NCBI RefSeq assembly: GCF_031755915.1
Contig: NC_083381.1
Location: forward strand, 5,530,501-5,594,500
Length of the DNA: 64,000 nt
Reading direction: 5' to 3'
Origin: Ziziphus jujuba
Lineage: Eukaryota; Streptophyta; Magnoliopsida; Rosales; Rhamnaceae
Every line of letters starts with the position of its first letter. Within the stretch, counting starts at the first letter, position 1. The notes beneath the pieces are model-generated. The model had not been told where the DNA came from. It was given only the letters and a program-made list of their open reading frames with translations, and ran no database searches. Of the stretch, positions 2,297 through 55,535 are shown piece after piece. The translations under genes were made by a program, and so were the position numbers.

Positions 2297-5200
2297 ATGT
2301 ATAAAGAATGTTACTTAAATAATTTAGCTTACCCTGATGAACCTATTTTACCTAGTTCTATTATATCTCTATTGCAAGAATATGAAGATGTCTTTCCGGA
2401 GGAGATCGCTAAAGTATTACCTCAATTAAGAGCAATTAAACATCAAGTTGATTTTATTCCTGGAGCTTCAATTCCTAACAAGCATGCATACAGAACAATC
2501 CAGAGGAGACAAAGGAATTGCAATGTTAGATAAGTGAACTTCTTGATAAAGGCTATGTAAGAGAAAGTATGAGTTTAATAGTGCCCAAAAAAAAATGGAA
2601 CATGGAGAATGTGTGTTGATTGTAGGGCCATTAATAGCATAACCATTAAGTATAGACATCCAATACCTAGGCTAGATGATATACTTGATGAATTGCATGG
2701 TGCTTGTATTTTCTCTAAAATTGATCTTAAAAGTGGATATCATCAAATTCGCATAAAAGAGGGTGATGAATGAAAAACGGCTTTTAAAACTAAACATGGA
2801 CTATGTGAATGGTTAGTTATGTGATGTGTAAAATCAACTCGCAAGTGCATGAATCGTTTTCAAGTAATAAAGTGGAAAATTAGGGTTGTCGTACCCAAGG
2901 GATTAAGTATTAAGTACCAAAGATAATTAGGTTTTGATAATATTTGAACTAAAATTTAAGATGGCAATTGAAAACTAAATAAACTAAATTAAACAAAAGC
3001 AATCAATTAAAATTAGATCAATTTCAAGTAAGAGAGAGAATTGAATAATTATGAATACTAGGGCATTTGATTTTACCACTAACTATTCCAATTTAATTAC
3101 TTAAATATGTGAATTTAATTAACTAGTAATTTTGTTAACCACACTTAATCACAAAATTAATCAAAAGTAGTTTCCACTCACAATTGATAATATTCACATA
3201 ACCTAATTTATTTCTTCCGGCCTACAAATTAAATCATGCAAATTCATCAAGCATAGATTAAGCAAATAATATGGCATGAGACATAACTATTTTCCAATAA
3301 ATTATGCATTCATGTAAATCATTGGAGATCCATAATATTATCCTTTTCCAAGCTCAAATATTATTAAAATCATTCATTCCTTCTGGCCTATGAAAGCATT
3401 AAGTATACCAATGATTTATTAACAAAACATATTACTAATTAAATAAAACTCAACATATATTAAAATAATTAAACCTTCATAGTTAAGGCTACATCATAAG
3501 CCTAGCTATGAAAATTAGTTCATGGTAAAAATAATTTCAACATCCATAATTATTAAAAATAATAAGATTCACAATTAAAGAGAAAAGAAAAAAGAATAAA
3601 AACTATTGAAGAAATTCTCCTCCAAGAGCTCTCAAAGTCGTAGCCTTCTTCTCCAAGCAAGCCCACGTCTCTCTGCCTCCTCCAAGCAAGCCCACGTCTC
3701 TCTGCCTCCTCCAAGCTCTCCAATTGATTTTCTAAAACTCTAAAACTTTAAAACCCTATAACCCTTAAGACAATCTTAGAAACTCCCAAAATTTGGTTTG
3801 TTTCTATTTAAGGTTCCTAAAAGCTCTTAAATAACTCTCTAAACTTGTATATCTTCCTTCAATGTGGTGGGGGCAATATATATAGGACCTTGAGAATCTT
3901 TTTCTCTCTTTATTTTCAATGTGGGAGTCTTGGAAGATATCTTTTTTAGGCCATGAAAAGGGTTGGACGAATTTCATGTGTAAAAAGGAAACTGGATATT
4001 ACTTGCTCTACTACTTTCCTTTTATCTAATTCCTCCTAAAAAAATAGTTAATTAGTCTAATTTACCCTTAATGAAGCATGTGACATGACATATGCCTCAT
4101 TAATGATAAATTAACCAATTATTGCCACTTGTTTTTATCTTAGCCCTCAAATTGCCTTGATTCCCTCTTTTGATCAATGGTGGAGGTTTAATTAGAATAT
4201 TATTTTTTATAAATTCTAAACTTTAAATGATGATAACTCTTTTCTCGCACCTCGAAATCCAAAAATAATGAGACATTTGAAATCCTCAGATCGTGATGAT
4301 TCATATGACATCCACTTCCATCAAGAAATTCCTAATAGAATCTTTATGGAATCTTCAAGGTATCTTTTTGGAATCTTTTTAATGCTTAGTCTGTTCGAGC
4401 TCAAATCTTGCTTCCCACCATAATTCGACCCAAGGAATCCATTTTTATGGTTGTTTTCTTAAAATTCTTCCTCTTTTACCTAGATTAGGAAAAATACATG
4501 ATTAAGTATCTTTCCATAACAAATTAACACAAACTAACAAATATTAAACTATAAATATGGCATAAAATCATCAATATTTTAGACCTAACATTATGCCTTT
4601 TGGTTTAACTAATGCACCTAGTACATTTATGCATCTTATGAATCATGTTTTAAGAGCATATTTAGGAAAATTTGTTATTGTGTATTTTGAAGACATCTCT
4701 TCTTAATATATAGCCCAAATTCAGAGGAGCATGTTGAGCATCTTAGGGCTACTTGTGATGTTCCAAGAAAAGAAAAATTATATGCTAATCTTAAGAAGTG
4801 TACTTTTTGCACTAGGGAATTTGTATATTTAGGTTTTATTGTTAGTGCAGAAAGCATTACGGTTGATAATAAAAAGGTAAGAACAATTCAGGAATGGCCG
4901 ACCCTTACGTCTATAAGTAATGGTAGAAGTTTTCATGATCTTACTAGTTTTTATAGAAGGTTCGTGAAGGACTTGCAACACCACTTAAGAAGTGATTAAA
5001 AAAAGTGTAGGCTTTACATGAGGAAAGAAGCAAGAGAAATTTTTTAATTTGTTGAAAGATAAACTTACTAATGCACCTTTCTTCTTTTGCCTAACTTTTC
5101 TAAAACATTTGAAATTTAGTGTGATGCATCAGGTATTAGTATAGGAGCTGTTTTTGTGCAAGAAGGCAGATTCATTACTTACTTCATTGAGAAATTGAGT

Positions 5201-5559: not shown

Positions 5560-6939
5560 AGGCATGTTGAAGGTAAGTTTTGTCTTTTTAAAGTTTTCAT
5601 GAATTACTGATTAGAGAATCTAATAGTGACGGTTTAATGGCACATTTGGTGTAGCTAAGACATTAGCTATATTTCATGAATATTATTATTGGCCGTGCAT
5701 GAGAAAAGATGTAGAGAAAATTTATGACAAGTGCATTAAGTGTAAACAAGCTAAATCAAAGTTGAACCTTCATGAATTATACACGCCATTACTAATTCCT
5801 AATCATCTTTATATTGATATCTCTATGTATGTTGTGTTAAGATTACCTAGAACAAAGAGTGGTAGGGATTCTATTTTTGTTGTGGTTGATAGGTTTTCTA
5901 AAATGGCATTCTTTATTGCTTGTCATAAAATAGATGATGCATCCTATATTGCTAATTTTTTTTACAAAGAAATTGTTAGATTGCATGGTATGTCGAAGAC
6001 AATAATTTCTAATAGAGATGCTAAATTCTTAAGTTTTTTTTTTTTTGGAAGACTTTATGGGCTAAACTTGGTACTAAGTTGTTGTTTTCTACTACTTTTC
6101 ATCCTCAAACTAATAGTCAAAGAGAAATAGTAAATAGGACTTTGTCTACCTTGTTAAAAGCTTTAATTAATAAAAATATTAAAACTTAGGAAGAGTATTT
6201 ACCACATGTAGAGTTTGCATACAATAGAACTATTCATTCAACTACTAACTTTTCACCTTTTGAACTTGTTTATGGTTTTAATCCTTTAACTCTATTGGAT
6301 TTATCACCATTACCGTTAAGTGAAAGAGCTAGTGTAGATGGGAAGAAGAAAGCCGAATTGGTCAAGCTTCTCCATGAAAAGGCACGTGTAAATATAGAGA
6401 GAAAAATAGAACAGTGTGTAAAACAAGCCAACAAAGGAAGAAAAAAGGCCTTTGAGCTTGGAGATTGGGTATGGTTGCACTTTAGAAATGAGAGATTTCC
6501 TAAGCAAAGTAAATGAAAACTTATACCAAAAGGAAATGGACCATTACAAATATTGTAGAAGATTGGAGACAATGCTTATAAGCTAGATCTTTGAGGTGAG
6601 TATAATGTTAGTACTACTTTCAATGTATCTGACATAACCCTTTTTGATTCAGGTGACGATTTGAGGACAAATCATCTTCAAGATGAGGGAAATGATGAGG
6701 ATCATCATGGGAGTACTCAAAGATGGAATCCTGAGCCATTGGAGTTGCCAATTGGACCAATTACTAGAGCTCGTGCAAAGAGGCTTAAAGTAGCATTGAA
6801 TGGTCTTATTCGGGGAGTGCTTATCAATCAGGAATACAAGAGTTTTGCTAAAGAAGAATCAAAATTAGCAACAATAAAAGAAAATAATGTTAAGGGCAAT
6901 TTGATAATTTTTCAAAAGCATGATGATGTGGCATTTTAA
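5560..6939 (+). pseudogene. Integrase and C-terminal tail of element C1
   Basis: The zinc-binding N-terminus is visible around 5610-5760 ([11 protein letters not shown] gives the two Cys). The family's RESH has become ESN, losing one His, and a one-base frameshift follows. The catalytic core spans 5699-6200: [18 protein letters not shown], then SNRDAKF where relatives have SDRDAKF, and QREIVNRTL holding the presumed catalytic Glu. The first core Asp (ISMDFV in family A) is replaced (ISMYVV). The C-terminal part has the [14 protein letters not shown] segment and ends in GPITRARAKRLK, already inside the 3' LTR. Stops near 6187, 6516 and 6557. Known role: inserts cDNA into the chromosome. Inactive here. 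Confidence 0.85.
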
Positions 6940-7555
6940 TGACATGGCATCTATGGACATGTGGCATCGAAGTGGCTATCCAACGTGGCTTGAAAAGAAA
7001 TAAATTATCTTGTTTCTTTTTAGGCCAATTATGTGTCTTACTTGATCACCAAGTTTTACAATTTTAATCTTATTTTGGTTTTAGGAAACTTCTAATTTTT
7101 ATTATGTTTTAATTATTTTTGGTTGGAAAATTAACTAGTTTCCTAATCTCTAGTTGTCATGTAATTAATCACTTTTCTAAACCAAAAAGGAGTTGACTAG
7201 TCAAATTTAAATAAGGAAATAAGTTAGAATTTAGGATTTTGAGTTTAGAAAGGTATTTTGGACGAATTTCTTATTATTTTTGCATGTATTTTGGCCTATA
7301 AAAAGGCTTTAATTTCATTAATACAATAGCTTTTGATCTTTAGAAAAATTTAATACTTGTGAGAGTTAAACCTTTGATTCTCTAAACTATCCTTTGAACT
7401 TTTCTAATTTAAGAAATAAAGTTCATTCCTTGACTTATCAATAGGGTAATTCTGCAATCCTTTTGTAGCATCATTCATTTCAAAAGAACCTGAATCAATT
7501 AGACGATCGAGTATTAGATTATCAAATTTAGGTTGGATTGCTTAGGTTCATATCA
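6693..7555 (+). repeat. 3' LTR of element C1
   Basis: Starts TGATGAGGATC straight after the purine tract AGATGAGGGAA and ends GGTTCATATCA; 863 bp. Its first 250 bases are coding-like (pol tail). A TATA-like CCTATAAAAAGG lies near 7289. The flank after 7555 is copia-derived. Confidence 0.75.
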
Positions 7556-10734: not shown

Positions 10735-13377
10735 TGTAACAGCTCCAGGCCGTAGCCCCCCTCACGGTTTTACTTTCGCAGCGGAAGCTGGAAACACGTC
10801 TTGAAGGGAGAGGTATCCACAGCCTTATAAAGACTACTTCGTGCCCCTCTCCAACCGATGTGGGATGTTACAATCCTCCCCCCTTGGGGCCCAGCGTCCT
10901 CGCTGGCACACCGATCCGGGTACTGGCTCTGATACCACTGTAACAGCCCAGACCACCCGCATCAGGATATTGTCCTCTTTGGCCCAGGGTTCACACCCTC
11001 TCTCCCCCCTGGCCTCAAGGTTTTGCTCACAAAACGCGTCCTAATGGTTAGGGGTCCCTCTCCCCTCTGGCCTCAAGGTTTTGCTCACAAAACGCGTCCT
11101 AATGGTTAGGGGTCCCACCCCTACACCTGCCAGTCCCACTAGCCCGGGCCTCCCAGGCTCAATCAAGATATTGTCCGCTTTGGGGTATTCCAGGCCGTAG
11201 CCCCCCTCACGGTTTTACTTTCGTAGCGGAAGCTGGAAACGCGTCTTGAAGGGAGAGTGTTAGGTCTAAAATATTGATGATTTTATGCCATATTTATAGC
11301 TTAATATTTGTTAGTTTGTGTTAATTTGTTATGGAAAGATACTTAATTATGTATTTTTCTTAATCTAGGTAAAAGAGGAAGAATTTTAAGAAAACTACCA
11401 TAAAAATGGATTCCTTGGGTCGAATTATGGTGGGAAGCAAGATTTGAGCTCGAACGGACTAAGCATTAAAAAGATTCCAAAAAGATACCTTGAAGATTCC
11501 ATAAAGATTCTATCGGGAATTTCATGATGGAAGTGGATGTCATATGAATCATCACGATCTGAGGATTTCAAATGTCTCATTATTTTTGGATTTCGAGGTG
11601 CGAGCAGAGAGTTATCATCATTTAAAGTTCGGAATTTATAAAAAGGAATATTCTAGTTAAATCTCCATCATTGATCAAAAGAGGGAATCAAGGCAATTTG
11701 AGGGCCAAGATAAAAACAAGTGGCAATAATTGGTTAATTTATCATTAATGAGGCACATGTCATGTCACATGCTTCATTAAGGGTAAATTAGACTAATTAA
11801 CTTAATTTTTTTTTAGGAGGAATTAGATAAAAGGAAAGTAGTAGAGAGCAAGTAATATACAGTTTCCTTTTTACACATGAAATTCGTCCAACCCTTTTCG
11901 TGGCCTAAAAAAGGTATCTTCCAAGACTCCCACATTGAAAATAAAGAGAGAAAAAGATTCCCAAGGCCCTATATATATAGCCCCCACCACATTGAAGGAA
12001 GATATACAAGTTTAGAGAGTTATTTAAGAGCTTTTAGGAGGCTTAAATAGAAACAAACCAAATTTTGGGAGTTTCTAAGATTCTCTTAAGGGTTCTAGGA
12101 TTTTAAAGTTTTAGAGTTTTAGAAGATCAATTGGAGAGCTTGGAGGAGGCAGAGAGACGTGGGCTTGCTTGGAGAAGAAGGCTACGACTTTGAGAGCTCT
12201 TGGAGGAGAATTTTTTCAATAGTTTTTATTCTCTTTTCCTTTCTCTTTAATTGTGAATCTTATTATTTTTAATAATTATGGATGTTGAAATTATTTTTAC
12301 CATGAACTAATTTTCATAGCTAGGGCTATGATGTAGCCCTAACTATGAAGGTTTAATTATTTTAATATATGTTAAGTTTTATTTAATTAGTAATATGTTT
12401 TGTTAATAAATAATTGGTATACTTAATGCTTTCATAGGCCGGAAGGAATGAATGATTTTAATAATATTTGAGCTTGGAAAAGGATAATATTATGGATCTC
12501 CAATGATTTACATGAATGCATAATTGATTGGAAAATAGTTATGTCTCATGCCATATTATTTGCTTAATCTATGCTTGATGAATTTGCATGATTTCATTTA
12601 TAGGCCGGAAGGAATAAATTAGGTTATGTGAATATTATCAATTGTGAGTGGAAACTACTTTTGATTAATTTTGTGATTAAGTATGGTTAACAAAATTACT
12701 AGTTAATTAAATTCACATATTTAAGTAATTAAATTGGAATAGTTAGTGGTGAAATCAAATGCCCTAGTATTCATAATTATTCAATTCTCTCTCTTACTTG
12801 AAATTGATCTAATTTTAATTGATTGCTCTTGTTTAATTTAGTTTATTTAGTTTTTAATTGTCATCTTAAATTTTAGTTCAAATATTGTCAAAACCTAATT
12901 ATCTTTGGTACTTAATACTTAATCCCTTGGGTACGACAACCCTATTTTTCCACTTTATTACTTGAAAACGATTCGTGCACTTGCGAGTTGATTTAACACA
13001 TCAGAGAGGTATCCACAGCCTTATAAAGACCGCTTCGTGCCCCTCTCCAACCGATGTGGGATGTTACAATCCTCCCCCCTTGGGGCCCAACGTCCTCGCT
13101 GGCACACTGATCCGGGTACTGGCTCTGATACCACTGTAACAGCCCAGACCACCCGCATCAGGATATTGTCCTCTTTGGCCCAGGGTTCACACCCTCTCTC
13201 CCACCTGGCCTCAAGGTTTTGCTCACAAAACGCGTCCTAATGGTTGATTCCAGGCTGTAGCCCCCCTCACGGTTTTACTTTCGCAGCGGAAGCTGGAAAC
13301 GCGTCTTGAAGGGAGAGGTATCCACAGCCTTATAAAGACTGCTTCGTGCCCCTCTCCAACCGATGTGGGATGTTACA
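10735..13377 (-). mobile_element. Tandem TRIM array: three LTRs, two internal parts
   Basis: LTRs lie at 10735-10872, 10939-13068 (interrupted by a solo LTR) and 13135-13377. Each of the two internal segments (10873-10938 and 13069-13134, 66 bp) has its own minus-strand PBS (TGGTATCAGAGCC) and PPT (AAGGGGGGAGGAT). LTRs start TGTAACATCCCACATCGG and end TGTTACA on the minus strand. TAGG at 10731-10734 is repeated after 13377. The middle LTR holds an extra direct duplication (about 10994-11118). The structure is what recombination between LTRs of two copies would give. Confidence 0.85.
11258..13003 (+). mobile_element. Solo LTR of Athila-like family T inside the TRIM array
   Basis: TGTTAGG to ACATCA, 1,746 bp, no internal region. 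GAGAG at 11253-11257 is repeated at 13004-13008. Removing it restores the TRIM phrase GAAGGGAGAGGTATCC. A promoter-like CCTATATATATAGCCCCC sits near 11970. It is the youngest layer here: copia, then TRIM array, then this LTR. Confidence 0.95.
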
Positions 13378-16598: not shown

Positions 16599-16703
16599 AT
16601 GGCAGAAGGGAGCCAACTGATGATTATTTGTTGTTTCTCACAGTTTATGCCAATCATCATATTCAAGGGGCCAAAGTTTCAAGAGTTCAGGATCTTCATA
16701 TGA
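16599..16703 (+). other. Possible upstream ORF in the SPT16 leader
   Basis: ATG at 16599 opens a 34-codon frame ending in TGA at 16701-16703, ten bases before the SPT16 ATG. It would be in the mRNA only if the 16579 acceptor is used; the 16643 acceptor would remove its ATG. Could temper SPT16 translation. No conserved peptide recognised. Confidence 0.3.
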
Positions 16704-16713
16704 ACCATTGCCA

Positions 16714-19700
16714 ATGGCAGAGACTCGAAATGTTAATGTGAAATCTTCAAATGGAAAGGTGTCCGGGGCCAGAAATCCTTATGCCATCAATCTGGATAAT
16801 TTCAGTAGGCGGTTGAAGATTTTATATTCACATTGGAATGACTACAAACGTGAACTATGGGGTGCTTCGGACGCAATTACAATAGCAACTCCTCCGACCT
16901 CTGAAGATCTTCGCTACCTGAAATCGTCAGCTCTCAATATCTGGTTGGTTGGTTATGAGTTCCCTGAAACAATCATGGTTTTCATGAAGAAGCAGATCCA
17001 TGTTCTATGTAGCCAGAAGAAGGCCTCTCTGCTTGATGTTGTGAAAAAGTCAGCCAAAGATGCTGTGGGTGTTGACGTCGTGTTGCACGTAAAGCCCAAA
17101 AGTGATGATGGAACTGGACTTATGGATAGTATTTTCCGTGCTGTCAATGCTCAGGCCAAGTCCAATGGTCGTGATACTCCTGTTGTTGGACACATTGCGA
17201 GAGAGGCTCCTGAAGGGAAGCTTTTGGAGATGTGGGCTGAAAAATTGAAGAATTCAAATTTCGAGCTAACTGATGTAACTAATGGGTTCTCAGACTTGTT
17301 TGCTGTCAAAGACAATAATGAGCTTACCAATGTGAAAAGAGCTGCATTTTTAACTTCGTCGGTCTTGAGGAGCTTTGTGGTCCCTAAGCTTGAAAAGGTC
17401 ATTGATGAGGAAAAAAAGGTTTCCCATTCTTCATTGATGGATGACACAGAAAAAACCATACTAGAACCTGCAAAAATAAAGGTGAAGTTGAAGGCAGAGA
17501 ACGTTGATATTTGTTACCCTCCAATTTTCCAAAGTGGGGGAGATTTTGATCTGAAACCAAGTGCTTCAAGCAATGACGAGAACCTTTGCTATGACTCTAC
17601 TAGTGTGATTATATGTGCTGTTGGATCTCGGTACAACAGCTATTGCTCAAATGTCGCTCGAACCTTTCTAATTGATGCCAATGCTATACAGAGCAAGGCT
17701 TATGAGGTTCTCCTCAAAGCTCAAGAAGCAGCAATTAGTAAATTAAAATCTGGAAACAAGGTAAGTGTTGCGTACCAAGCAGCACTTTCAGTAGTTGAGA
17801 AGGATGCTCCTGAATTGGTTACGAACTTGACCAAAACTGCAGGAACTGGAATTGGGCTTGAGTTTCGTGAGTCTGGGCTTAACCTTAATGCCAAGAATGA
17901 TCGAACTTTGAAAACAGGCATGGTTTTCAATGTGTCTCTTGGCTTTCAGAATTTGCAGGCGGCCACCAAGAACCCAAAGACCCAAAAATTTTCACTTTTG
18001 CTAGCAGATACTGTTATTGTTCAGAAAGATGTCCCTGAAGTGTTGACACATTTGAGTTCTAAAGCTGTCAAGGATGTGGCATACTCCTTTAATGAGGATG
18101 ATGACGAGGAAGAAGAGAGACAAAAAGTAAAATCAGAGACTAAAGGTGTTGGGACTACCTTGTCCAAGGCAACACTTAGGTCTGACAACCAGGAGATGTC
18201 TAAGGAAGAGCTACGCAGGCAGCACCAGGCAGAACTTGCTCGTCAGAAGAATGAAGAAACTGCAAGGAGGCTTGCTGGTGGGGGTTCGGCTTCAGCGGAT
18301 AATCGTGGCAATGGGAAGACAATTGGTGACCTAATTGCGTATAAGAATGTCAATGATCTGCCTTCTCCAAAAGATTTGATGATTCAGATTGACCAAAAGA
18401 ATGAAGCCATCCTCTTTCCGATATATGGAACCATGGTTCCTTTTCATGTGGCCACGGTGAAGAGTGTGTCCAGCCAGCAGGACAGCAATCGAAACTGCTA
18501 CATCCGTATTATCTTCAATGTACCTGGCACACCATTTAATCCTCATGATGCAAACTCTCTCAAGTTTCAAGGGTCAATTTATTTGAAGGAAGTCTCATTT
18601 CGCTCTAAGGACTCCAGGCATATAAGTGAAGCTGTCCAGCTGATTAAAACCCTTCGCCGACAGGTTGCCTCTAGGGAGTCTGAAAGAGCTGAGAGAGCCA
18701 CTTTAGTTACTCAAGAGAAGCTTCAACTTGCAGGAGCAAAGTTTAAGCCAATACGTCTGTCTGATCTATGGATTCGCCCCCCCTTTGGTGGTCGTGGAAG
18801 AAAGCTTACTGGATCTATTGAAGCCCATGCAAATGGGTTTCGCTATTCTACTTCAAGGCCTGATGAACGTGTGGATGTTATGTTTTCCAATGTCAAGCAT
18901 GCCTTCTTCCAGCCAGCAGAAAAGGAAATGATCACTCTGCTGCACTTTCATTTGCACAATCACATTATGGTAGGAAACAAAAAGACCAAGGATGTGCAAT
19001 TTTATGTTGAGGTGATGGATGTCGTCCAGACACTAGGAGGTGGAAAGAGATCTGCCTATGATCCAGATGAGATTGAGGAAGAACAACGTGAACGGGACCG
19101 AAAGAACAAAATTAATATGGATTTCCAAAACTTTGTGAATCGAGTGAATGATTTATGGGGGCAACCTCAATTCAAAGTACTTGACCTTGAGTTTGATCAG
19201 CCTCTCAGAGAGCTTGGCTTCCATGGAGTACCCCACAAGGCTTCGGCTTTCATTGTGCCCACCTCAAGCTGCCTGGTTGAACTGATAGAGACACCGTTTG
19301 TGGTAATTACTCTAAGTGAGATTGAGATAGTCAACCTTGAGAGAGTTGGCCTTGGGCAGAAGAACTTTGATATGACTATAGTATTTAAGGACTTCAAGCG
19401 GGATGTATTTAGAATTGATTCCATCCCCTCAACATCCTTAGATGGAATCAAAGAGTGGCTAGACACAACTGACCTCAAGTATTATGAAAGCAGGTTGAAT
19501 CTGAATTGGCGGCCTATACTGAAGACTATTACCGATGATCCCGAGAAGTTCATAGAGGATGGTGGATGGGAATTTTTGAACATGGAGGTTAGTGATTCAG
19601 ATTCTGATAACTCAGAAGAGTCAGACAAAGGGTATGTGCCTTCAGATGTTCAGTCCGACTCAGGTTCAGATGACGAGGATGATGACAGCGAGTCATTAGT

Positions 19701-19935
19701 GGAATCTGAGGATGATGATGAAGAGGACTCTGAAGAAGACTCAGAGGAAGATGAAGGAAAGACATGGGAAGAGTTGGAGAGGGAAGCAAGCTATGCAGAT
19801 AGGGAAAAAGGGGCTGATTCTGATAGTGAAGAGGAAAGGGCAAGGAGGAAGATGAAGACTTATGGAAAGTCGCGAGCACCGGACAAGAGGAACCTTGGAG
19901 GCAGCCTTCCTAAGAGGCCCAAATTAAGGAGATAG
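16714..19935 (+). CDS. SPT16: FACT complex subunit SPT16
   Basis: Large subunit of FACT, the SPT16-SSRP1 histone chaperone that loosens and rebuilds H2A-H2B contacts during transcription, replication and repair in the nucleus. One uninterrupted frame of 1,073 codons from ATG at 16714 (context CCAATGGC); a frame extended to 16708 would start on TTG. Plant SPT16 proteins are about this length. Visible order: inactive aminopeptidase-like N-terminal domain (about 30-440; RYLKSSALNIWLVGYEFPE, GTGIGLEFRESGLNLNAKND); charged linker (EELRRQHQAELARQKNEETA, about 490-520); SPT16/dimerisation domain (550-660; NCYIRIIFNVPGTPFNPHD); middle Rtt106-like PH domains (676-900; FHLHNHIMVGNKKTKDVQFY); acidic tail from about 960 that binds H2A-H2B; basic end PKRPKLRR, a likely nuclear signal. 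Nothing is missing. It is the only intact host gene here; its 3' half is duplicated downstream as a pseudogene. Confidence 0.98.
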   Translation: MAETRNVNVKSSNGKVSGARNPYAINLDNFSRRLKILYSHWNDYKRELWGASDAITIATPPTSEDLRYLKSSALNIWLVGYEFPETIMVFMKKQIHVLCSQKKASLLDVVKKSAKDAVGVDVVLHVKPKSDDGTGLMDSIFRAVNAQAKSNGRDTPVVGHIAREAPEGKLLEMWAEKLKNSNFELTDVTNGFSDLFAVKDNNELTNVKRAAFLTSSVLRSFVVPKLEKVIDEEKKVSHSSLMDDTEKTILEPAKIKVKLKAENVDICYPPIFQSGGDFDLKPSASSNDENLCYDSTSVIICAVGSRYNSYCSNVARTFLIDANAIQSKAYEVLLKAQEAAISKLKSGNKVSVAYQAALSVVEKDAPELVTNLTKTAGTGIGLEFRESGLNLNAKNDRTLKTGMVFNVSLGFQNLQAATKNPKTQKFSLLLADTVIVQKDVPEVLTHLSSKAVKDVAYSFNEDDDEEEERQKVKSETKGVGTTLSKATLRSDNQEMSKEELRRQHQAELARQKNEETARRLAGGGSASADNRGNGKTIGDLIAYKNVNDLPSPKDLMIQIDQKNEAILFPIYGTMVPFHVATVKSVSSQQDSNRNCYIRIIFNVPGTPFNPHDANSLKFQGSIYLKEVSFRSKDSRHISEAVQLIKTLRRQVASRESERAERATLVTQEKLQLAGAKFKPIRLSDLWIRPPFGGRGRKLTGSIEAHANGFRYSTSRPDERVDVMFSNVKHAFFQPAEKEMITLLHFHLHNHIMVGNKKTKDVQFYVEVMDVVQTLGGGKRSAYDPDEIEEEQRERDRKNKINMDFQNFVNRVNDLWGQPQFKVLDLEFDQPLRELGFHGVPHKASAFIVPTSSCLVELIETPFVVITLSEIEIVNLERVGLGQKNFDMTIVFKDFKRDVFRIDSIPSTSLDGIKEWLDTTDLKYYESRLNLNWRPILKTITDDPEKFIEDGGWEFLNMEVSDSDSDNSEESDKGYVPSDVQSDSGSDDEDDDSESLVESEDDDEEDSEEDSEEDEGKTWEELEREASYADREKGADSDSEEERARRKMKTYGKSRAPDKRNLGGSLPKRPKLRR

Positions 19936-24333: not shown

Positions 24334-25194
24334 ATTTGGTACCGGAACTTATTCTAAAATCAGGTTGGTTATCTTTATTATTGTTTCTTTATTTTTCATT
24401 ACATCTAATCTCCTTATGTTTTTGTCTTTCTTTTGTTTTGTTTTCCTGGTTCTTATTATTGCTTTTTTTTTTCCTTTTTTTTTTTTTCATCTATCATTGA
24501 ATCTTTTTATGTCTCCTCACCTTACATAAAAAAATAAAAAAATAAAAAAAAAATCGTTCTTTCCTATGTGCGCTGTAAAAATCTAAAGTTTGGTTTCTCT
24601 TGTTTACTTTACCTTCCTGTTAGTGTTTTCTTCATTCTGATTGTCTTTATTTATTATCTCCACAATTTAGATTAAAAAAAAAAAAAACTAAAAACAAAAA
24701 ATTCAGTTTTTTTTTTTTTTAATGGTTTGATTTGATTTATTGTGGTTTCAATTTTTGGAAAGCAAAGATTTTGGGAGTTGATTAGTAGTACATGCAGAAT
24801 TCTTTATTATCAACTTCGAAAATTCTCAATATCATTTCTTATTATTCTTTCTTTATTCTCTTTGATTTGTTTCTTTATTTTCTTGCCTATCTTGTTGTGT
24901 AATATTTCTTTCTATTCTTGCCTACCTTGTTTTATATTTCTTTCTACTCTTGAATTAATTGTTAAGTTTTTGAATTGTTGCTGGCAAGTTTGGTTTGTTT
25001 GTAACTAGTTCAATAAGAACTTAGTGAATAAATTAGAGTGGAAAAAAGGTAAGATAGTTTATTATAGAAAAAGCCAAATAACTAAGTGTAACATGAGTGA
25101 TTTTAAATTCATTTTTTTTTTCTTGAGTAAAACATGTGAGGGAGTGAGTACGAATATTTCTTGTCATTAACCAAATTTTGCAGAAATATATCTC
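24334..25194 (+). other. Leader of the family D element
   Basis: Very T-rich, no credible gene; ORFs here are long hydrophobic runs from poly-T. Ends with GTAAAACATGTGAGGGAGTGAG (25126-25147), the leader phrase shared with families B and C just before gag. Confidence 0.6.
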
Positions 25195-25427
25195 AAGACC
25201 ATGGTAAAGAAACTAGTCAAGACAAAGCTACTTTTGATCCAAAATTCATGATGAGCCATGATGGGGGAGCTTAAGAAAATAATAAAGAATGAATTGGAGC
25301 CAATGCATGATAGCATGGATAGGATGAAGAATTCCTTTCAAAAGTTGCCCCAAAGAATGCCCAACCCAGGCCGTGGAAGAGGAGGTGGAAGGTGTACACA
25401 CCACAAAGGCCAACTTTTGAAACTTTT
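25195..25427 (+). pseudogene. gag remnant of the family D element
   Basis: Frame from about 25258 reads GELKKIIKNELEPMHDSMDR then a Gly/Arg-rich patch (NPGRGRGGGR), the layout of the gag N-terminus in families A and B (LxxMxxIHDRLDRME, then RG-rich). It ends at 25427, where the 3' LTR begins. The capsid and everything after it are deleted. Confidence 0.65.
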
Positions 25428-25733
25428 TGATGAGGATCATCATGGGAGTACTCAAAAATGTAGCCTTAAGCTATTAGAGTTGTTAATTGGACCAATTATA
25501 AGAGCTCATGCAAAGAGTTTAAAAAAGCATTGAATAGTCTTCTTAATTCGAGAGGTGCTAATCAATCAAGAGTGTAAGAGTTTTGCTAAGAAAGAATCAA
25601 AATTGGCAATAATATTGAGTATTGAAGGCTGCGGATATGAAGGCATGAAAGAGGCTAATGTTAGAGGCAATTTGGTCATTTCTCAAGAGCATGATGTTGT
25701 GGTACTTTGATGACATGGCATCTTGGACACGTG
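25428..25733 (+). repeat. Start of a gypsy 3' LTR (C-like), cut at 25734
   Basis: TGATGAGGATCATCATGGGA matches the family C LTR start at 6693. It encodes the decayed tail (GPIIRAHAKSLK; in C1 GPITRARAKRLK). It stops where the family T LTR begins; the expected continuation (ATGTGGCATCGAAG in C1) does not follow the inverted duplication. Confidence 0.75.
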
Positions 25734-27475
25734 TGTTAGGTCTAAAATATTGATGATTTTATGCCATATTTATAGATTAATATTTGTTAGTTTGTGTTAA
25801 TTTGTTATGGAAAGATACTTAATTATGTATTTTTCTTAATCTAGGTAAAAGAGGAAGAATTTTAAGAAAACAACCATAAAAATGGATTCCTTGGGTCGAA
25901 TTATGGTGGGAAGCAAGATTTGAGCTCGAGCGGACTAAGCATTAAAAAGATTCCAAAAAGATACCTTAAAGATTCTATAAAGATTCTATCAGGAATTTCA
26001 TGATGGAAGTGGATGTCATATGAATCATCACGATCTGAGGATTTCAAATATCTTGTTATTTTTGGATTTCGAGATGCGAGCAAAGAGTTATCATCATTTA
26101 AAGTTTAGAATTTATAAAAAATAATATTCTAGTTAAATCTCCACCATTGATCAAAAGAAGGAATCAAGGCAATTTGAGGGCCAAGATAAAAACAAGTGGC
26201 AATAATTAGTTAATTTATCATTAATGAGGCACATGTCATGTCACATGCTTTATTAAGGGTAAATTAGACTAATTAACTATTTTTTTAGGAGGAATTAAAT
26301 AAAAGGAAAGTAGTAGAGAGGAAGTAATATCCAGTTTCCTTTTTACACATGAAATTCGTCCAACCATTTTCATGGCCTAAAAAAGATATCTTCCAAGACT
26401 CCCACATTGAAAATAAAGAGAGAAAAAGATTCCCAAGGTCCTATATATATAGCCCCCACCACATTGAAGGAAGATATACAAGTTTAGAGAGTTATTTAAG
26501 AGCTTTTAGGAACCTTAAATAGAAACAAACCAAATTTTGGGAGTTTCTAAGATTCTTTTAAGGGTTCTAGGGTTTTAAAGTTTTAGAGTTTTAGAAAATC
26601 AATTGGAGAGCTTGGAGGAGGCAGAGAGACGTGGGCTTGCTTGGAGAAGAAGGCTACGACTTTGAGAGCTCTTGGAGGAGAATTTCTTCAATAGTTTTTA
26701 TTTTTTTTTCCTTTCTCTTTAATTGTGAATCTTATTATTTTTAATAATTATGGATGTTGAAATTATTTTTACCATGAACTAATTTTCATAGCTAGGGCTA
26801 TGATGTAGCCCTAACTATGAAGGTTTAATTATTTTAATATATGTTGAGTTTTATTTAATTAGTAATATGTTTTGTTAATAAATCATTGGTATACTTAATG
26901 CTTTCATAGACCGGAAGGAATGAATGATTTTAATAATATTTGAGCTTGGAAAAGGATAATATTATGGATCATCAATGATTTACATGAATGCATAATTGAT
27001 TGGAAAATAGTTATGTCTCATGCCATATTATTTGCTTAATCTATGCTTGATGAATTTGCATGATTTAATTTATAGGCCGGAAGGAATAAATTAGGTTATG
27101 TGAATATTATCAATTGTGAGTGGAAACTACTTTTGATTAATTTTGTGATTAAGTGTGGTTAACAAAATTACTAGTTAATTAAATTTACATATTTAAGTAA
27201 TTAAATTGGAATAGTTAGTGGTGAAATCAAATGCCCTAGTATTCATAATTATTCAATTCTCTCTCTTACTTGAAATTGATCTAATTTTAATTGATTGCTT
27301 TTGTTTAATTTAGTTTATTTAGTTTTCAATTGCCATCTTAAATTTTAATTCAAATATTATCAAAACCTAATTATCTTTGGTACTTAATACTTAATCCCTT
27401 GGGTACGACAACCCTAATTTTCCACTTTATTATTTGAAAACGATTCGTGCACTTGCGAGTTGATTTTGCACATCA
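25734..27475 (+). repeat. Family T LTR, left arm of the inverted duplication
   Basis: TGTTAGG to GCACATCA, 1,742 bp. TATA-like CTATATATATAGCCCCC near 26442. Followed after six bases by the PBS, so this is a true 5' LTR. Confidence 0.92.
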
Positions 27476-27481
27476 AGTTTT

Positions 27482-27499
27482 TGGCGCCGTTGCTGGGGA
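27482..27499 (+). promoter_or_regulatory. Primer binding site, tRNA-Asp type
   Basis: TGGCGCCGTTGCTGGGGA is complementary, with one mismatch, to the 3' end of plant tRNA-Asp (CCCCGGCAACGGCGCCA), the primer used by Athila-type elements. Confidence 0.88.
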
Positions 27500-28075
27500 T
27501 TAAGGCATTAATATTAATTCAGATTGGGTTTAGTAGTACTTTGATCATTGTTTTCTTATTTTAAATTTTTATATTTGTTTCTTAATTTTGGTTTTAGTGT
27601 TGCATGCTAGGGTTTCAATTCTTGTCTTGTTTGGCCAACTTGCTTTGAATTTTTAATACTTATTTTGTGGTACTTGAAACCAAAATTGTGTTTTTAATTT
27701 ATTGGTGCTTGGGTTACAAGTCTAGCATACTTAGGGATTTTATTATTATTTTTTATTTGTTTGGTTGAATAAGATTAGGTTTAGCTTACTTTTAGTTGAA
27801 ATTTTAGTTTGGCATAATTGTTTACTTTAAAAGCATACCTGCACAAAAGGGTTTAATTTTTTGCATTCTTTTCGTTTGGTTCATTATTTCCCAGAGTTAT
27901 TTTCATTTATCTTTTAGTTAAGTGTGTGTTTGTTTTTCTTTATTGCTATTTGATTTTAATTGTTAGATTAGTTAGCAACATTAGAATTCTAATAATTTTT
28001 TTTTTCTTGTTCAATTTTCTAATTTTCTTTCTAATTTATTTTCCTTGCTCTCTTTTTAGGAATTAGGTGTTGTGT
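27500..28075 (+). other. Leader of the family T left arm
   Basis: T-rich noncoding sequence between PBS and gag ATG. Its near-complete reverse complement lies at 28979-29552. Confidence 0.8.
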
Positions 28076-28489
28076 ATGAGTCATAGTGGTGATCAAGAGT
28101 TCAAGGAGGAAGTTGACTTAGAAAATAAACCAGCACCTAGAAAACAAGCCATAAAGGGGTACTTGGGTACGTATAGACCAAGGAACTTAAGAAGGTGCAA
28201 TGGCCAACCAAAGGGAAGATAATTTGCCCATATGCGAGTATGCTGCTCACAAGAAAGTTGGTGATTTGTCTTGCATAAGGAGACCACCCATTGAAGCAAA
28301 AAATTTTAAAATTGAAGCATCTACTACTTCTTTGCTTAATAATGTTCAATTTTGTGGTTTGCCTCATGAAGATCCAAACATGCATATTTATAGTTTTCTT
28401 CAATTGTGTGATATGTCTAAACAAAATGGTGTTTCTGATGATGCTTTTCGATTAAGACTTTTTCCTTGGTCTCTTAGAGACAAGGCAAA
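28076..28489 (+). pseudogene. gag N-terminus, left arm
   Basis: ATG at 28076 opens HSGDQEFKEEVDLENKPAPR. A frameshift near 28150 disrupts it, and the correct frame resumes at 28200 (MANQREDNLPICEYAAHKK, IRRPPIEAKNFKIEAST, FLQLCDMSKQNGVSDDAFRL, WSLRDKAK). This is the family seen upstream of the gag domain in Athila/Tat-type elements. The frame then runs into the reversed arm and has no downstream pol. Confidence 0.8.
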
Positions 28490-28978
28490 AAATTTGTCTA
28501 GGAATTTTGCCTCCATAGCATCCCATGTAGTGATAGTACCTGGGGGTAAAGAATTTAACCACACTTTTGCCTTGTCTCTAAGAGACCAAGGAAAAAGTCT
28601 TAATCGAAAAGCATAATCAGAAACACCAGTTTGTTTAGACATATCACACAATTGAAGAAAACTAGAAATATGCATGTTAGGATCTTCATGAGGCAAAGCA
28701 CAAAATTGAACATTTTTAAGCAAAGAAGTAGTAGATGCTTCAATTTTAAAATCCTTTCCTTCAATGGGTGGTCTCCTTATGCAAGACAAATCACCAACTT
28801 TCTTGTGAGCGGCATACTCGTATATGGGCAAATCATCTTCTCTTTGGTTGGCCATTGCACCTTCTTGAGTTCCTTGGGCTATACGTACCCAAGTACCCCT
28901 TATGGCTTGTTTTCTAGGTGTTGGTTTATTTTCCAAGTCAACTTCCTCCATGAACTCTTGATCACCACTATAACTCAT
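28490..28978 (-). pseudogene. gag N-terminus, right (reversed) arm
   Basis: ATG at 28978 reading leftward: SYSGDQEFMEEVDLENKPTP, MANQREDDLPIYEYAAHKK, then VWLNSLPPGTITTWDAMEAK and FLDKFF, a classic retrotransposon gag signature that the left arm lacks. The frame is open without frameshift to 28490, then crosses into antisense of the left arm and stops at 28400. Truncated at the inversion junction but better kept than the left copy. Confidence 0.85.
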
Positions 28979-29576
28979 ACACAACACCTAATTCCTAAAA
29001 AGAGAGCAAGGAAAATAAATTAGAAAGAAAATTAGAAAATTGAACAAGAAAAGAAAAATTGGAATTATAATGTTGCTAACTAATCTAACAATTAAAATCA
29101 ATTAGCAATAAAGAAAAACAAACTAACACTTAACTAAAAGATAAATGAAAATAACTCTGGGAAATAATGAACCAAACGAAAAGAATGCAAAAATTAAAGC
29201 CTTTTGTGTAGGCATGCTTTTAAAGTAAACAATTATGCCAAACTAAAATTTCAACTAAAAGTAAGCTAAACCTAATCTTATTCAACCAAACAAATAAAAA
29301 AAAATAACAATAAAATCCCTAAGTATGCTAAACTTGTAACCTAAACACCAATAAATTAAAAACACGATTTTGGTTTAAAGTACAACAAAATAAGTATTAA
29401 AATTCAAAGCAAGTTGGCCAAACAAGTAAAAAATTAAAACCCTAGCATGCAACACTATAACCAAAACTAAGAAATAAATATAAAAAATTAAAATAAGAAA
29501 ACAATGTTCAAAATACTACTAAACCCAATCCGAATTAATATTAATGCCTTAATCCCCGGTAATGACGCCAAAAACT
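28979..29576 (-). other. Leader and PBS of the family T right arm
   Basis: Reverse complement of 27476-28075 with scattered changes. The PBS at 29553-29570 reads TGGCGTCATTACCGGGGA on the minus strand; compared with the consensus it has changes at CG sites (C to T, G to A), the mark left by cytosine methylation. Confidence 0.8.
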
Positions 29577-30808
29577 TGATGTGTAAAATCAACTCGCAAG
29601 TGCACGAATCGTTTTCAAGTAATAATGTGGAAAAATAGGGTTGTCGTACCCAAGGGATTAAGAATTAAGCACCGAAGATAATTAGGTTTTGATAATATTT
29701 GAACTACCATTTAAGATAGCAATTGAAAATTAAATAAACTAAATTAAACAAAAACAAGAAAATAAAATTAGATCAATTTCAAGTAAAGAGAGTGAGTTTA
29801 ACAATTATGAATGCTAGGGCATTTGATTTCACCACTAACAATTCCAATTTAATTACTTAAATATATGAATTTAATTAACTAGTAATTTTGTTAATGTTAG
29901 GTCTAAAATATTGATGATTTTATGCCATATTTATAGCTTAATATTTGTTAGTTTTTGTTAATTTGTTATGGAAAGATACTTAATTATGTATTTTTCTTAA
30001 TCTAGGTAAAAGAGGAAGAATTTTAAGAAAACAACCATAAAAATGGATTCCTTGGGTCGAATTATGGTGGGAAGCAAGATTTGAGCTCGAACGGACTAAG
30101 TATTAAAAAGATTCCAAAAAGATACCTTGAAGATTTCCATAAAGATTCTATCGGGAATTTCATGATAGAAGTGGATGTCATATGAATCATCAAGATCTGA
30201 GGATTTCAAATGTCTCGTTATTTTTGGCTTTCGAGGTGCGAGCAAAGAGTTATCATCATTTAAAGTTTAGAATTTATAAAAAATAATATTCTAGTTAAAT
30301 CTCCACCATTGATCAAAAGAGGGAATCAAGGCAATTTGAGGGCCAAGATAAAAACAAGTGGCAATAATTGGTTAATTTATCATTAATGAGGCACATGTCA
30401 TGTCACATGCTTCATTAAGGGTAAATTAGACTAATTAACTATTTTTTTAGGAGGAATTAGATAAAAGGAAAGTAGTAGAGAGCAAGTAATATACAGTTTC
30501 CTTTTTACACATGAAATTCGTCCAACCCTTTTCATGGCCTAAAAAAGGTATCTTCCAAGACTCCCACATTGAAAATAAAGAGAGAAAAAGATTCCCAAGG
30601 CCCTATATATATAGCCCCCACCACATTGAAGGAAGATATACAGTTAACCACACTTAATCATAAAATTAATCAAAAGTAGTTTCTACTCACAATTGATAAT
30701 ATTCACATAACCTAATTTATTCCTTCCAACCTATAAATTAAATCATGCAAAATCATTAAGCATAGATTAAGCAAATAATATGGCATGAGACGTAACTATT
30801 TTCCAATC
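29577..30808 (-). repeat. Family T LTR, right arm, truncated and interrupted
   Basis: Reversed LTR from TGATGTGTAAAATC (29577) to 29894, interrupted by 29895-30642, resumed 30643-30808 and broken off at TTTTCCAATCAA, where a family B LTR piece begins. Only the 3' 480 bases or so of the LTR survive. Confidence 0.85.
29895..30642 (+). mobile_element. U3-only piece of the family T LTR with target duplication
   Basis: TGTTAGG to GATATACA, 748 bp, matching only the first 43 per cent of the LTR. It ends about 39 bases after the start of its TATATATA box, so it holds U3 and little more. GTTAA at 29890-29894 is repeated at 30643-30647, and removing the insert restores the host LTR. TG...CA ends and a 5-bp duplication look like integrase work, but a later 3' deletion of a normal solo LTR would look the same. 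Confidence 0.85.
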
Positions 30809-31179
30809 AATAAAAAAGTAATGGTAATTTCTTAAAACAAAAAGTATAATCAAATTAGGAAACTAAAGTACTAGCTTTTTGACTAAGTTGACTTTGACTA
30901 ATCTTTGACCAATTTGAGCTCCAAAACAGCTTCAATATGCTTTGTAGGATGCCAAATAAGCTTATTATGGAGTCCCATATGTTTCCCTTGCTTGGAAGAA
31001 AGAGAAAAACCCAACTCATCAAAATACAATAAAGCTAGCAGAAAATACTGCGATTTTCGGCCAAATTTTGAAGCTGTCCTTACAAGTTGGTTTTACTTCT
31101 GTCTTGACTTGTTTCCATGACCTCTTAGTGATATTTATTGAATCCATAAAGATTTAGAACCATTTCTTGCTGCCCGGAC
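30809..31179 (-). repeat. Reversed fragment of a family B LTR
   Basis: Reverse complement of a middle part of the family B LTR (compare 31435-31835), including CATTACTTTTTGG- and GCATCCTACAAAGCATATTG-like phrases. It directly precedes the forward family B LTR at 31180, forming an imperfect palindrome. Confidence 0.85.
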
Positions 31180-32308
31180 TGATACGAATCCTCCCGAACC
31201 CGCTCAACTTACAACCACTTAGGGTGCTGACCCGATACGGATGAAGACCAGGCCGATCACTAGTGCTCAAACTAAGAAGTTTAAGGGCAATCTTGCTGCC
31301 TTTATCCAGGGAGTAATTCATATTCAAAAGGGTTTGTCCATACTCGAAGATCCCAGACCTATATTGAGCATATAAGTGGTGGAAGCCTGTACGGACCCAG
31401 ATTGAGGTTTTGGTGCAATTATGGAAGCCGGGAAGCATGAAATGGTTCCAAGGTTTCATTGATTCAATAAATATGTCTAAGAGGACATGGAATCAAGTCA
31501 AATCAGCCTCAAAGTCATCAAAAAAGGAGTTGTACGGACAGTTAGTAAATTTGGCTTGTTTTCGCTGTATTTTGTGCTGGCTTTACTGTATTATGCTGAG
31601 TTGGCTTTTTCTCTTTGTTCCAAGCAAGGGCAACATGTGGGACTCCATGATTAGCTTATTTGGCATCCTACAAAGCATATTGAAGCTCATTTGGAGCTCA
31701 AATTGGTCAAAAAATGTCAAAGTCAACTTAGTCAAAAAGCTAGTATTTTAGTTTTCTAATTTGATTCTACTTTTTGTTTTAGGAAATTATCATTACTTTT
31801 TGGTTTTTATTTATATATTTGCTGGAAAAATAAGTTTACGAAAGTTATTGTTTTATTATTTTCATTGTAGATTAATTAATTCCTAATTCATAATAAAGGA
31901 ATTAATTAATCCAAATTAGATTAGGAAAGAAGTGAGAATTTTGGCTACCATAGGAAACCACTTTGTATGGCCGGTTTTCCCTTTGTTTTTAGGGTTTATT
32001 TCATGACTTTGTAGCCTATTTAAAAGCTTATTTTTCAATAAGAATTAAGCTTGAATTTTATACAGGAAATTATTTATGGGATTGAATTCTCTTTGTTCTT
32101 TTGAACACCTAAAACACCATTAGAGAGTGAGTGTTTTAGTTTAACTTATCAACAGGACTTCCATCACCTATTGTAGTGTCTTCCTTATATACCAAGGTTT
32201 CAAATCATAGGTTGGTTAGGGATTAAGGTGACCATTAGAGCTTGAACATAATTAAATCCGGGCTAATATAATACGGGTTTAGGAGCAGGTTGTCTTAGGT
32301 TCGTATCA
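31180..32308 (+). repeat. 5' LTR of the family B composite
   Basis: TGATACGAATCC to GGTTCGTATCA, 1,129 bp, followed by the PBS TGGTATCAGAGCC at 32311-32323 (initiator tRNA-Met type). The first 250 bases are the decayed pol tail. Confidence 0.85.
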
Positions 32309-33458
32309 TTTGGTATCAGAGCCGAATTTTGTTCAAGTTTGATCTATCTTTATTTGCTTTATTTATTTTGTGTGTTAATCTGCAATTTTAGCATTCGGTT
32401 AAGGTTGCTTCTATCATCATACATGTTCTGCATATTTAAATAATAAAAATAATTCATTCCTAGTTGAATTAGGATTTCCTTGCCTTACCGTATTTTTGTT
32501 TCCTAGTTTGTTGGTTGTCTTTTATCATTGTTCTTGTTAATTTGGTTTTTGTTGATTTTACTTTGCTGTTTTAGTCTTCAATATTTGCATTAATATTTTC
32601 AAAAAAAAAAAAAAAATCGAACAAATATTCAAAAAAAAAAAAAAAAACTGCGCTTTTGTTTTTGTTGGAGGCCACGGGTTTGGTGGATTTTTGGTGTGGA
32701 ATTGCAATTTTTTAGTGTTGATCTTTGCTACTACAATTGTTTTATGTTCTGTGAGTGAAAAAATAAAAAAAAAAAAAAGAAGAAGAAGAAAAGCCGAACA
32801 AAAAAAAAAAAAGAAAAGAAAACAAATTTTCGCTTTGTTGAATTTGATGTTTGCTGGAAATTTCTTTGAACTGCTGCATTGTTGGCTATTTGTTACATAT
32901 TTGGAGTTTCTAGAGAATTATTTTTGTTGCTGGATATTTGAATTTTGGGTGCTTAAATTATTTGGATTAAAATTAGTTAAAGGAATTGATACAAAACTTG
33001 AATTACAGGAACAACAACCAACACTATTCTTAATTTTTATTCGAATTGATTCTTATTCGTGTTTGAAATTCTATTTCCTAAATTTTATTCTTTAATCCTT
33101 AATCTCTTACGATCTGGTCCAGTTCTTAAAAATTCCAAAATTTTCTCATTGATTTGCTTTATTTTGCCTAGAAAAGCCGAAAACTAGGATTTGTTAATTC
33201 ATTCGGTATTGCTTACTTTTTGCTACTGTTTTGTTGATAAGTTTAATAAAAACATACTTGTGATCTAATTGCTGTTTAGTGGGTGTTTTAATTAGAACTT
33301 TGAGATAATTTATTAAGTGGAAAAAGGCAAGAGTGTGCGAGTTTAAAAGAGGGTAGAAGCCAAAACTAGTATGAAAACACAAGTGTCGAGACCTTGATAG
33401 AGCGAAACATGTGAGGGAGTGATATTTGGTGAGAATTTATTTTATTTTGCATACTAAC
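32309..33458 (+). other. Family B leader with PBS
   Basis: Noncoding, with poly-A runs at 32601, 32631 and 32768, and a GTGAGTGAAAA phrase shared by all family B leaders. Ends with the conserved ACATGTGAGGGAGTGA before the gag ATG. Confidence 0.75.
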
Positions 33459-53243: not shown

Positions 53244-54293
53244 TTTGGTATCAGAGACAAATTTTATTCAGGTTTGATCTATCTTTATTTGCTTTATTGT
53301 TTAAGGTTGCATCCATCCCATACACATTCTGCATCTTTAAAAAAAAAAAAAAAATCATTCCTAGTTGAATTAGGATTTCCTTGCTTTATCGTATTTTTGT
53401 TTCCTAATTTGTTGGTTTTCTTTCATCGTTGTTCTTGTTAATTTTGGTTTTTGTTGATTTTTCTTTGCTGTTTTAGTCTTAAATATTTGCATTCATATAT
53501 TCAAAAAAACAAAAATAAACATTTGAAGAGTGGGGTTTGTGGAATAAAAAAAAAAAAATCACACAATTTGAATTTTTGATTGGGAGGTCATGGGTTTGGT
53601 GTTTGTTTTGGAGTTGGAATTGCAATTTTGGTAATTGTTCTTGCTACTGTAGTTGTTTGATAATCAGTGAGTGAAAAAAGAAAAAAAAAAAAAAAGAAGA
53701 AGAAAGCAGAGTATAAAAAAAATATATATATATATACCAGTTTGTTGAAAATTGGTGTTGAAGTTTGTTGATGGAAATTTCTTGTAATTGCTGCTTTGTT
53801 GATTATGTATTCCATATTTTTAAGTTTCTGGAGAGTTATTTTTGCTGCTGGATATTTGAGTTTGACTGCTAAATTATTTAGATTAAAATTAGTTAAAGGA
53901 TTTGATACAAAAACTTGAATTATAAAGAACAACAACCAACAACTATTCTATATTTTTGTTCAATTTGATTCTTGTTCGTATCTGAATTTATTTTTCTAGA
54001 ATTTTATTCTTGAACTCATAATCTATTACCATCTAGTCCAGTTCTTCAAAATTCCAAAGTTTTCCGATTAATTTGCTTCATTTTGCCTAAAAAAGCCGAA
54101 AACTAGGTTTTGTTGAATTCTTTCAGTATTGCCTACTTTTTACTATTGTTTTCTTGATAGGTTTAATTAAAACATCCATGTGATCTAATTGTTGTTTTTT
54201 GGGTGTTTTAATTAGAACTTTGAGATAATTCATTGAAAGGAAAAAGACAAGAGAGTGGAGCACAAAAGAGGGTTAAAAGGCAAAATTCGTGTG
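53244..54293 (+). other. Family B5 leader, truncated before gag
   Basis: PBS, then family B leader with A runs (53338, 53546, 53680) and a (TA)n run. It stops just before the gag start region, at AAAATTCGTGT, where a family T LTR fragment begins. Confidence 0.78.
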
Positions 54294-55318
54294 CCCCCAC
54301 CACATTGAAGGGAGATATACAAGCTTAGAGAGTTATTTAAAAGCTTTTAGGAGGCTTAAATAGAAACAAACCAAATTTTGGGAGTTTCTAAGGTTCTCTT
54401 AAGGGTTCTAGGGTTTTAAAGTTTTAGAGTTTTAGAAGATCAATTGGAGAGTTTGGAGGGGGCATAGAGACGTGAGTGTGCTTGGAGAAGAAGGCTATGA
54501 CTTGGAGAGCTTTTGGAGGAGGATTTCTTCAATAGTTTTTATTCTGTTCTCTTTCTCTTTAATTATGAACATTATTGTTTTTTCTTTATAATTATGGATG
54601 TTGAAATTATTTTTGCCATGAACTAATTTCATAGCTAGGGTTATGATGTAGCCCTAACTATGAAGTTCTAATTATTTTAATATATGTTGAGTTTTATTTA
54701 ATTAGTAATATGTTTTGTTAATAAATCATTGGTATGCTTAATGCTTGCATAGGCCGGAAGGAATGAATGATTTTAATAATATTTGAGCTTGGAGAAGGAT
54801 AATATTATGGATCTCCAATGATTTACATGAATGCATAATTGATTGGAAAATAGTTATGTCTCATGCCATATTATTTGCTTAATCTATGCTTAATGAATTT
54901 GCATGATTTAATTTGTAGGCCGGAAGGAATAAATTAGGTTATGTGAATATTATCAATTGTGAGTGGAAACTACTTTTGATTAATTTTGTGATTAAGTGTG
55001 GTTAACAAAATTACTAGTTAATTAAATTCACATATTTAAGTAATTAACTTGAAATAGTTAGTGGTGAAATCAAATGCCCTAGTATTCATAATTATTCAAT
55101 TCTCTCTCTTACTTGAAGTTGATCTAATTTTAATTGATTGCTTTTGTTTAATTTAGTTTATTTAGTTTTCAATTGCCATCTTAATTGTTAGTTCAAATAT
55201 TACCAAAACCTAATTATCTTTGGTACTTAATTCCTAATCCCTTGGGTATGACAACCCTATTTTTCCACTTTATTACTTGAAAATGATTCGTGCACTTGCG
55301 AGTTGATTTTACACATCA
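54294..55318 (+). repeat. Family T LTR lacking U3
   Basis: Begins GCCCCCACCACATTGAAG, immediately after the place where other copies have their TATA box, and continues to ACACATCA. It holds R/U5-like sequence only, fused to the family B5 leader; its own promoter is gone. Confidence 0.88.
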
Positions 55319-55324
55319 AGTTTT

Positions 55325-55342
55325 TGGCACCGTTGCCGGGGA
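55325..55342 (+). promoter_or_regulatory. Primer binding site, tRNA-Asp type
   Basis: TGGCACCGTTGCCGGGGA matches the Athila-type PBS with one change (C to A) and lies six bases after the LTR, as at 27482. Confidence 0.88.
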
Positions 55343-55535
55343 TTAAGACATTAATATTAATTCGGATTAGGTTTAGTAGTACTTTGAACATTTTTTTTTT
55401 CTTATTTTCAACTTTTGTTTATCTTTATTATTTTCAATTTAGTTTGTATATTAGGGTTTAATTTTAATTGTTTGCTTAATAAAATTGCAATTAATTTGAA
55501 CACTTGTTTTGTTAGTGTTTCTTTTTAGGAAAATC

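Follow-up and report, generated by a model that had tools for sequence, protein, structure and literature searches.

Two copies of a long terminal repeat (LTR) retrotransposon lying head-on raise the question of whether one element was duplicated in inverted orientation, possibly creating a source of silencing RNA, or whether separate insertions came to lie side by side. The question arises for positions 25734-30811 of a 64,000-nucleotide stretch of the Ziziphus jujuba genome (contig NC_083381.1; the window in what follows, to which all plain positions refer), which the initial annotation described as an Athila-like element in inverted duplication and a possible long-hairpin RNA locus. Here, a copy on the plus strand (element A, the left arm) meets a copy on the minus strand (element B, the right arm) within gag, and B is interrupted by a third, partial copy. 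According to our analysis, the locus is most likely the product of three separate insertion events, all from a single gypsy (Athila-like) family, and of deletions. The structure is real and its origin ordinary; its function, as far as the sequence can tell, is unproven.

Organization of the Inverted Locus

The alignment of 27159-29894 to its own reverse complement revealed an inverted repeat (27159-28490/28565-29894) with 92.6% identity, to which a distal inverted piece is added (26995-27163/30643-30811; identity 95.9%); this similarity is far beyond chance. The two pieces together bear out the total arm length of about 1.5 kb given initially, and the order of LTR, primer-binding site (PBS), leader, and gag is as described, reading forward to 28490 and as reverse complement from 28491. 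The arms are composed as follows:

25734-28490, plus strand: left arm, element A, with the whole LTR, the PBS, the leader, and the start of gag
25734-27475, plus strand: complete 1742-bp LTR of A (TG...CATCA), delimited by BLAST with two solo LTRs that bear target duplications; a box scan places its TATA box at 26442
27476-28072, plus strand: PBS (TGGCGCCGTTGCTGGGGA) and leader of A, 93.5% to the right arm
28073-28490, plus strand: 5' part of A gag up to the junction, 95.2% to the right-arm gag
28487-28490, no strand: inversion junction, a 4-base match (AAAA) common to both sides, where the halves of the junction query overlap
28491-30811, minus strand: right arm, element B, with gag, leader, PBS, and LTR positions 1742-1426 and then 1430-1262
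28491-28564, minus strand: 74-base "loop", the right-arm gag past the left-arm break (open frame 28400-28987, minus strand; Retrotrans_gag PF03732, E 1.2e-06)
28565-28981, minus strand: gag of B, from the alignment to the left arm
28982-29576, minus strand: leader and PBS of B, the PBS with 3 changes relative to most copies
29577-29894, minus strand: 3' end of the B LTR, LTR positions 1742 to 1426 (BLAST)
30643-30811, minus strand: B LTR positions 1430 to 1262, then truncated; 95.9% to 26995-27163

The loop, initially given as about 67 bases, is really a spacer of 74 bases. A foreign origin of this spacer was ruled out, as it represents the right-arm gag continuing beyond the break of the left one (right-arm frame ...WLNSLPPGTITTWDAMEAKFLDKF); moreover, the right arm is alignable through 28491 in most of the family copies that were fetched. 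The same LTR/PBS border as in A is present in 20 of 20 of these copies. The left LTR does keep a TATA-like box, TATATATA, as had been noted. No known RNA family reached the gathering score at 25000-32000.

Two Insertions or One Duplicated Copy

The comparison set consisted of 20 copies fetched from the 39 other places listed for a gag query; 15 of the 20 span U5 to gag and were aligned with both arms over 1365 columns. The distance between the arms is 0.056, the left arm differs from the other copies by 0.023-0.037, and the right arm by 0.048-0.065. A carries 17 private states and B 48, and a single state is exclusive to both arms; under a stricter rule, the private changes are 18 in A vs. 50 in B (p 1.3e-4). 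No indel confined to A and B was found against the 15 copies. The tree is star-like, with branches of 0.036 plus 0.013 for the right arm and 0.015 for the left one, and it joins A and B at a support of 49/0 and in 50% of 200 bootstrap trees.

Arms born together should have roughly equal numbers of private changes; thus, the unequal counts favour independent ages. The partial copy inside B has, in turn, 4 private states vs. 11 in the corresponding U3 region of A (747 compared bases), and these counts, at like rates, would make B the oldest, A younger, and the partial copy the youngest. A single inverted duplication is disfavoured by the one exclusive site, the absence of a shared indel, and the lack of a supported tree join; with 15 copies sampled, the arms do not look like the duplication of one copy that a locus of the Mu killer type (see below) would contain. 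Judging from their sequences, the arms are probably two independent family members of different age, beside different flanking elements, and "inverted duplication" is probably wrong as a description of their origin.

The flanks of the locus are the following:

25428-25733, plus strand: left flank, end of another retrotransposon and apparent target of A, 73% to 6693-6963; gypsy by reading of the sequence
30813-31177, minus strand: right flank, piece of an LTR retrotransposon from a second family, matching 31428-31801 in reverse complement (84%); gypsy by reading of the sequence

The left and right flanks share no match at E 1e-3, so that a larger inverted duplication taking in the flanks is not supported and was rejected. 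On the right side, the LTR of B is cut at LTR position 1262 (30811 in the window) and fused to the 30813-31177 piece of another family. A palindromic cDNA inserted whole should present LTR ends and a target duplication on both outer sides, and the right side lacks them; such a cDNA with intact outer ends is therefore not supported, unless a later deletion removed the right end. A one-step origin of this kind, by fold-back or template switch of the reverse transcriptase, would agree with the short central asymmetry of 74 bases, with the 4-base match at the junction, and with the label shuffles reported below. Its arms, however, would begin identical and age equally, against the private changes counted above, and its right end would not be expected to stop inside an LTR fused to another element. 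We consider it very unlikely.

The same right flank belongs to a second, older-looking palindrome of another family (30813-31801; arms of 365-374 bp, 84%, 250 bp apart), which adjoins the first. From 30813 to 63270, retrotransposon fragments of either orientation form a mosaic in which break points are reused (at about 35620, 42262, 46922, and 50165).

Several observations weigh against two independent insertions. In a label-shuffling test, a pair of rows came out grouped as well as A and B are in the tree only 19 times out of 500, which points weakly to a common origin; the arms could also come together because both sit basally in a star-like tree, and we gave more weight to the absent branch support. 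The lack of shared changes also fits a duplication at the moment of insertion, which is opposed by nothing but the inequality of the private counts and the state of the outer ends. Since the family copies were the best-ranked entries of a single similarity list, the sample may lack older relatives of B. Furthermore, the break points of the two arms in gag are no more than about 75 bp apart, with a chance of 1.4% for one pair and of 12% that this happens in one or more of nine selected inverted pairs (near pairs hand-picked from the window and from random stretches, excluding farther pairs and the self-overlapping palindromes in loci L038 and L049). This proximity would allow a mechanism specific to palindromes, and the 74-base offset hints at a possible loss of sequence from the middle of a palindrome that was once longer. 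Finally, only 1 of 20 random 10-kb stretches of the genome harbors an inverted pair of more than 80% identity (pairs of at least 150 bp at E 1e-20).

In the same control, inverted pairs of any identity are present in 5 of the 20 stretches, four of them at 66-79%, and the window has such pairs in 4 of its 6 10-kb tiles. Inverted pairs are not rare in this genome. One of them (L049:4238-10000, reaching the end of the fetched stretch) has 2.1-kb arms with 95.9% identity, 1553 bp apart; it is longer and more alike than the locus studied here, but has a longer spacer.

The Inversion Junction

A query across the junction matches 39 other places in separate halves, with query positions of about 3-191 and 188-401 falling on opposite strands and sharing about 4 bases. 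Both halves are joined only in the window among the 40 scored of 105 candidates (394-Mb genome, 14 contigs). The short overlap at 28487-28490 fits illegitimate recombination, which has been proposed, in a 2007 rice study, to delete parts of LTR retrotransposons (PMC1940013).

A join seen in a single place, with just 4 common bases and repeats on both sides, is also what one would expect if two family copies had been falsely joined at 28487-28490 during library preparation or assembly. Fold-back artefacts, however, produce near-identical arms, and those of the present locus differ by 5.6%; one arm has an extra insertion with its own target duplication, further inverted joins occur in the same window, and its 64 kb contain no N. 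These data make an artefact very unlikely.

We can depict the following scenario for the separate insertions. B would have inserted first, on the minus strand (an order that assumes like rates of private change). A would have followed on the plus strand, with the terminal part of another retrotransposon as its target. The gag of A may then have been fused to that of B, in opposite orientation, by a deletion, the 4-base match being consistent with end joining or slippage, and a separate break would have cut the LTR of B. The U3-only LTR copy would then have landed in B. The outcome would be a potential 1.3-kb RNA hairpin, most likely inert debris.

The U3-Only Insertion

Within B lies a forward insert of 748 bp that consists solely of U3 from the same LTR, a feature absent from the initial annotation:

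29890-29894, no strand: target duplication GTTAA, left copy; LTR positions 1426-1430, present on either side of the insert
29895-30642, plus strand: U3-only LTR insert (TG...ATACA), 96.9% to 25734-26480, with GTTAA on both sides
30643-30647, no strand: target duplication GTTAA, right copy; LTR positions 1426-1430 repeated

Its first base is the first base of the LTR, and it ends with a CA 38 bases past the start of its own TATA box (30604), near the predicted transcription start. In A, the matching end point falls within a 7-base repeat, CAAGTTT (26479 and 27474), common to the LTR/PBS border; thus, a jump during reverse transcription or a later deletion could explain a copy reduced to U3. The exact 16-base pattern for the U3 end without the following A matches, in the genome, only here and at C8:17951583 (changed 15-mers would escape this search), and the latter match is an ordinary LTR that reads on, with a substitution.

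This insertion is the least ordinary part of the locus. The rice study mentioned above was aware of no account of truncated copies having inserted (PMC1940013). In plants, LTR retrotransposons are reported to nest in 3' untranslated regions (UTRs) and, in certain families, within elements of their own kind, the preference for autoinsertion being limited in that study to some families and species (PMC6911290). The jujuba locus shares with the cases in these two studies the insertion of gypsy elements into retrotransposons, the 3'UTR preference, mostly 5-bp duplications, and deletions at micro-homologies; it differs in the opposite orientation, which leaves a near-palindrome, and in the unusual U3-only insert.

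Hairpin Potential and Silencing

Could the locus work as a hairpin source? The sense strand of 27164-29889 folds at -1958 kcal/mol, whereas the sole control, a normal copy of the same length, gives -665; 1268 of 1327 left-arm bases are predicted to pair across, and 26 helix stretches extend without interruption over 21 bp or more. The claim that an RNA read through both arms can form a hairpin therefore holds for the predicted fold, and the long near-identical inverted arms with a short spacer resemble those of Mu killer. Together with the TATA box in the left LTR, this keeps a read-through hairpin conceivable. Long, well-paired hairpin RNAs are good Dicer substrates; such an RNA, if made, should thus be one.

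Past methylation of the right arm had been suggested from changes at CG sites in its PBS. Considering the sites where at least 13 of the 15 copies agree, private C>T/G>A changes affect 1 of 28 CG vs. 14 of 364 other cytosines in the right arm, and CG decay as a mark of past methylation was rejected by these counts; in our own reading, only 1 of the 3 PBS changes falls within a CG. It is the left arm that has relatively more CG change (3/28 CG vs. 3/364 others, p 0.006). A bacterial promoter scan of the LTR, unsuited to a plant, was given no weight.

Mu killer of maize is a partial inverted duplication of the DNA transposon MuDR; transcription from a flanking gene is the proposed source of its hairpin, and its silencing activity is supported by genetic tests (PMC3440606). 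The jujuba locus resembles it in having inverted transposon arms that could yield a long hairpin RNA by read-through, and differs in consisting of two apparently independent LTR retrotransposons, with an LTR as the would-be promoter and a silencing that is only putative. The nearest LTR case found in the literature is an antisense nested EVD insertion in an Arabidopsis rdr6-EVD line, whose role as a hairpin source was untested there (PMC11624286). In both cases, oppositely oriented LTR retrotransposon copies lie a few kb from each other, and an LTR hairpin or convergent transcription was proposed; in the EVD case the element has newly inserted into itself, whereas the jujuba locus is older, with truncated copies and a join within gag. 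The literature already considers hairpins that arise from LTR retrotransposons nested in antisense.

A working locus would imply that the LTR of A transcribes both arms, that Dicer-like enzymes cut the product, and that small RNAs silence the family, as with Mu killer and MuDR. The pairing and folding energy reported above, the TATA box at 26442, and the many close family copies agree with this, as does the hairpin potential of the antisense-nested copy in an Arabidopsis individual with silenced EVD (PMC11624286). On the other hand, the arms have diverged by 5.6%, and B is interrupted by an insert keeping its own TATA box. Silencing can also be fed by dispersed family copies, without the locus studied here. 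We regard such a working locus as highly improbable; the same holds for the idea that a chance head-on pair of LTR retrotransposons became a natural hairpin source, whose small RNAs (U5, leader, and gag) would help to silence the whole family.

If true, it would be a counterpart of Mu killer for a gypsy element, and small RNAs from it, if real, would offer a natural test of whether hairpins start LTR retrotransposon silencing. As read here, the locus illustrates that a hairpin-capable structure may arise by chance from two separate insertions instead of a duplication; an inverted transposon pair by itself would thus be weak evidence for a silencing locus.

The Element Family and the Rest of the Window

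The LTR ends of the family were fixed by two solo LTRs, whose presence in the window had been correctly recognized: 11258-13003 (GAGAG on both sides) and 2822-4590 on the minus strand (CATAA on both sides). They show the TG...CA ends and the short target duplications of Ty3/gypsy LTRs; A's own target duplication is not visible because its 3' end was lost. A and B both lack pol. The pol order of Ty3/gypsy was found in one copy elsewhere (L051, an open frame), with protease at 167-257 (weak, just under the cut-off), reverse transcriptase at 516-672, RNase H at 762-863, and an integrase zinc domain at 970-1025; its best PDB match is Ty3. The label "Athila-like" is our assumption, presumed from the LTR length and the letters of the PBS.

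Family gag copies are evenly spaced at C10:14059521-14087233 (9165 bp three times) and C6:20920578-20940313 (9761 bp twice), as expected for tandem arrays of whole LTR-internal units. At 54293-55512, a family LTR starting just past the TATA box is joined to a sequence resembling that ending at 33373, and the leader of this copy is just 78% like that of the family. The solo LTR at 11258-13003 is bordered, within 10744-13377, by repeats 98% alike (10808-11049/13004-13245 and 10744-10872/13249-13377).

Finally, the window contains an open frame of 1103 codons (16624-19932) with matches to six Pfam families, which span SPT16, a component of the FACT complex.

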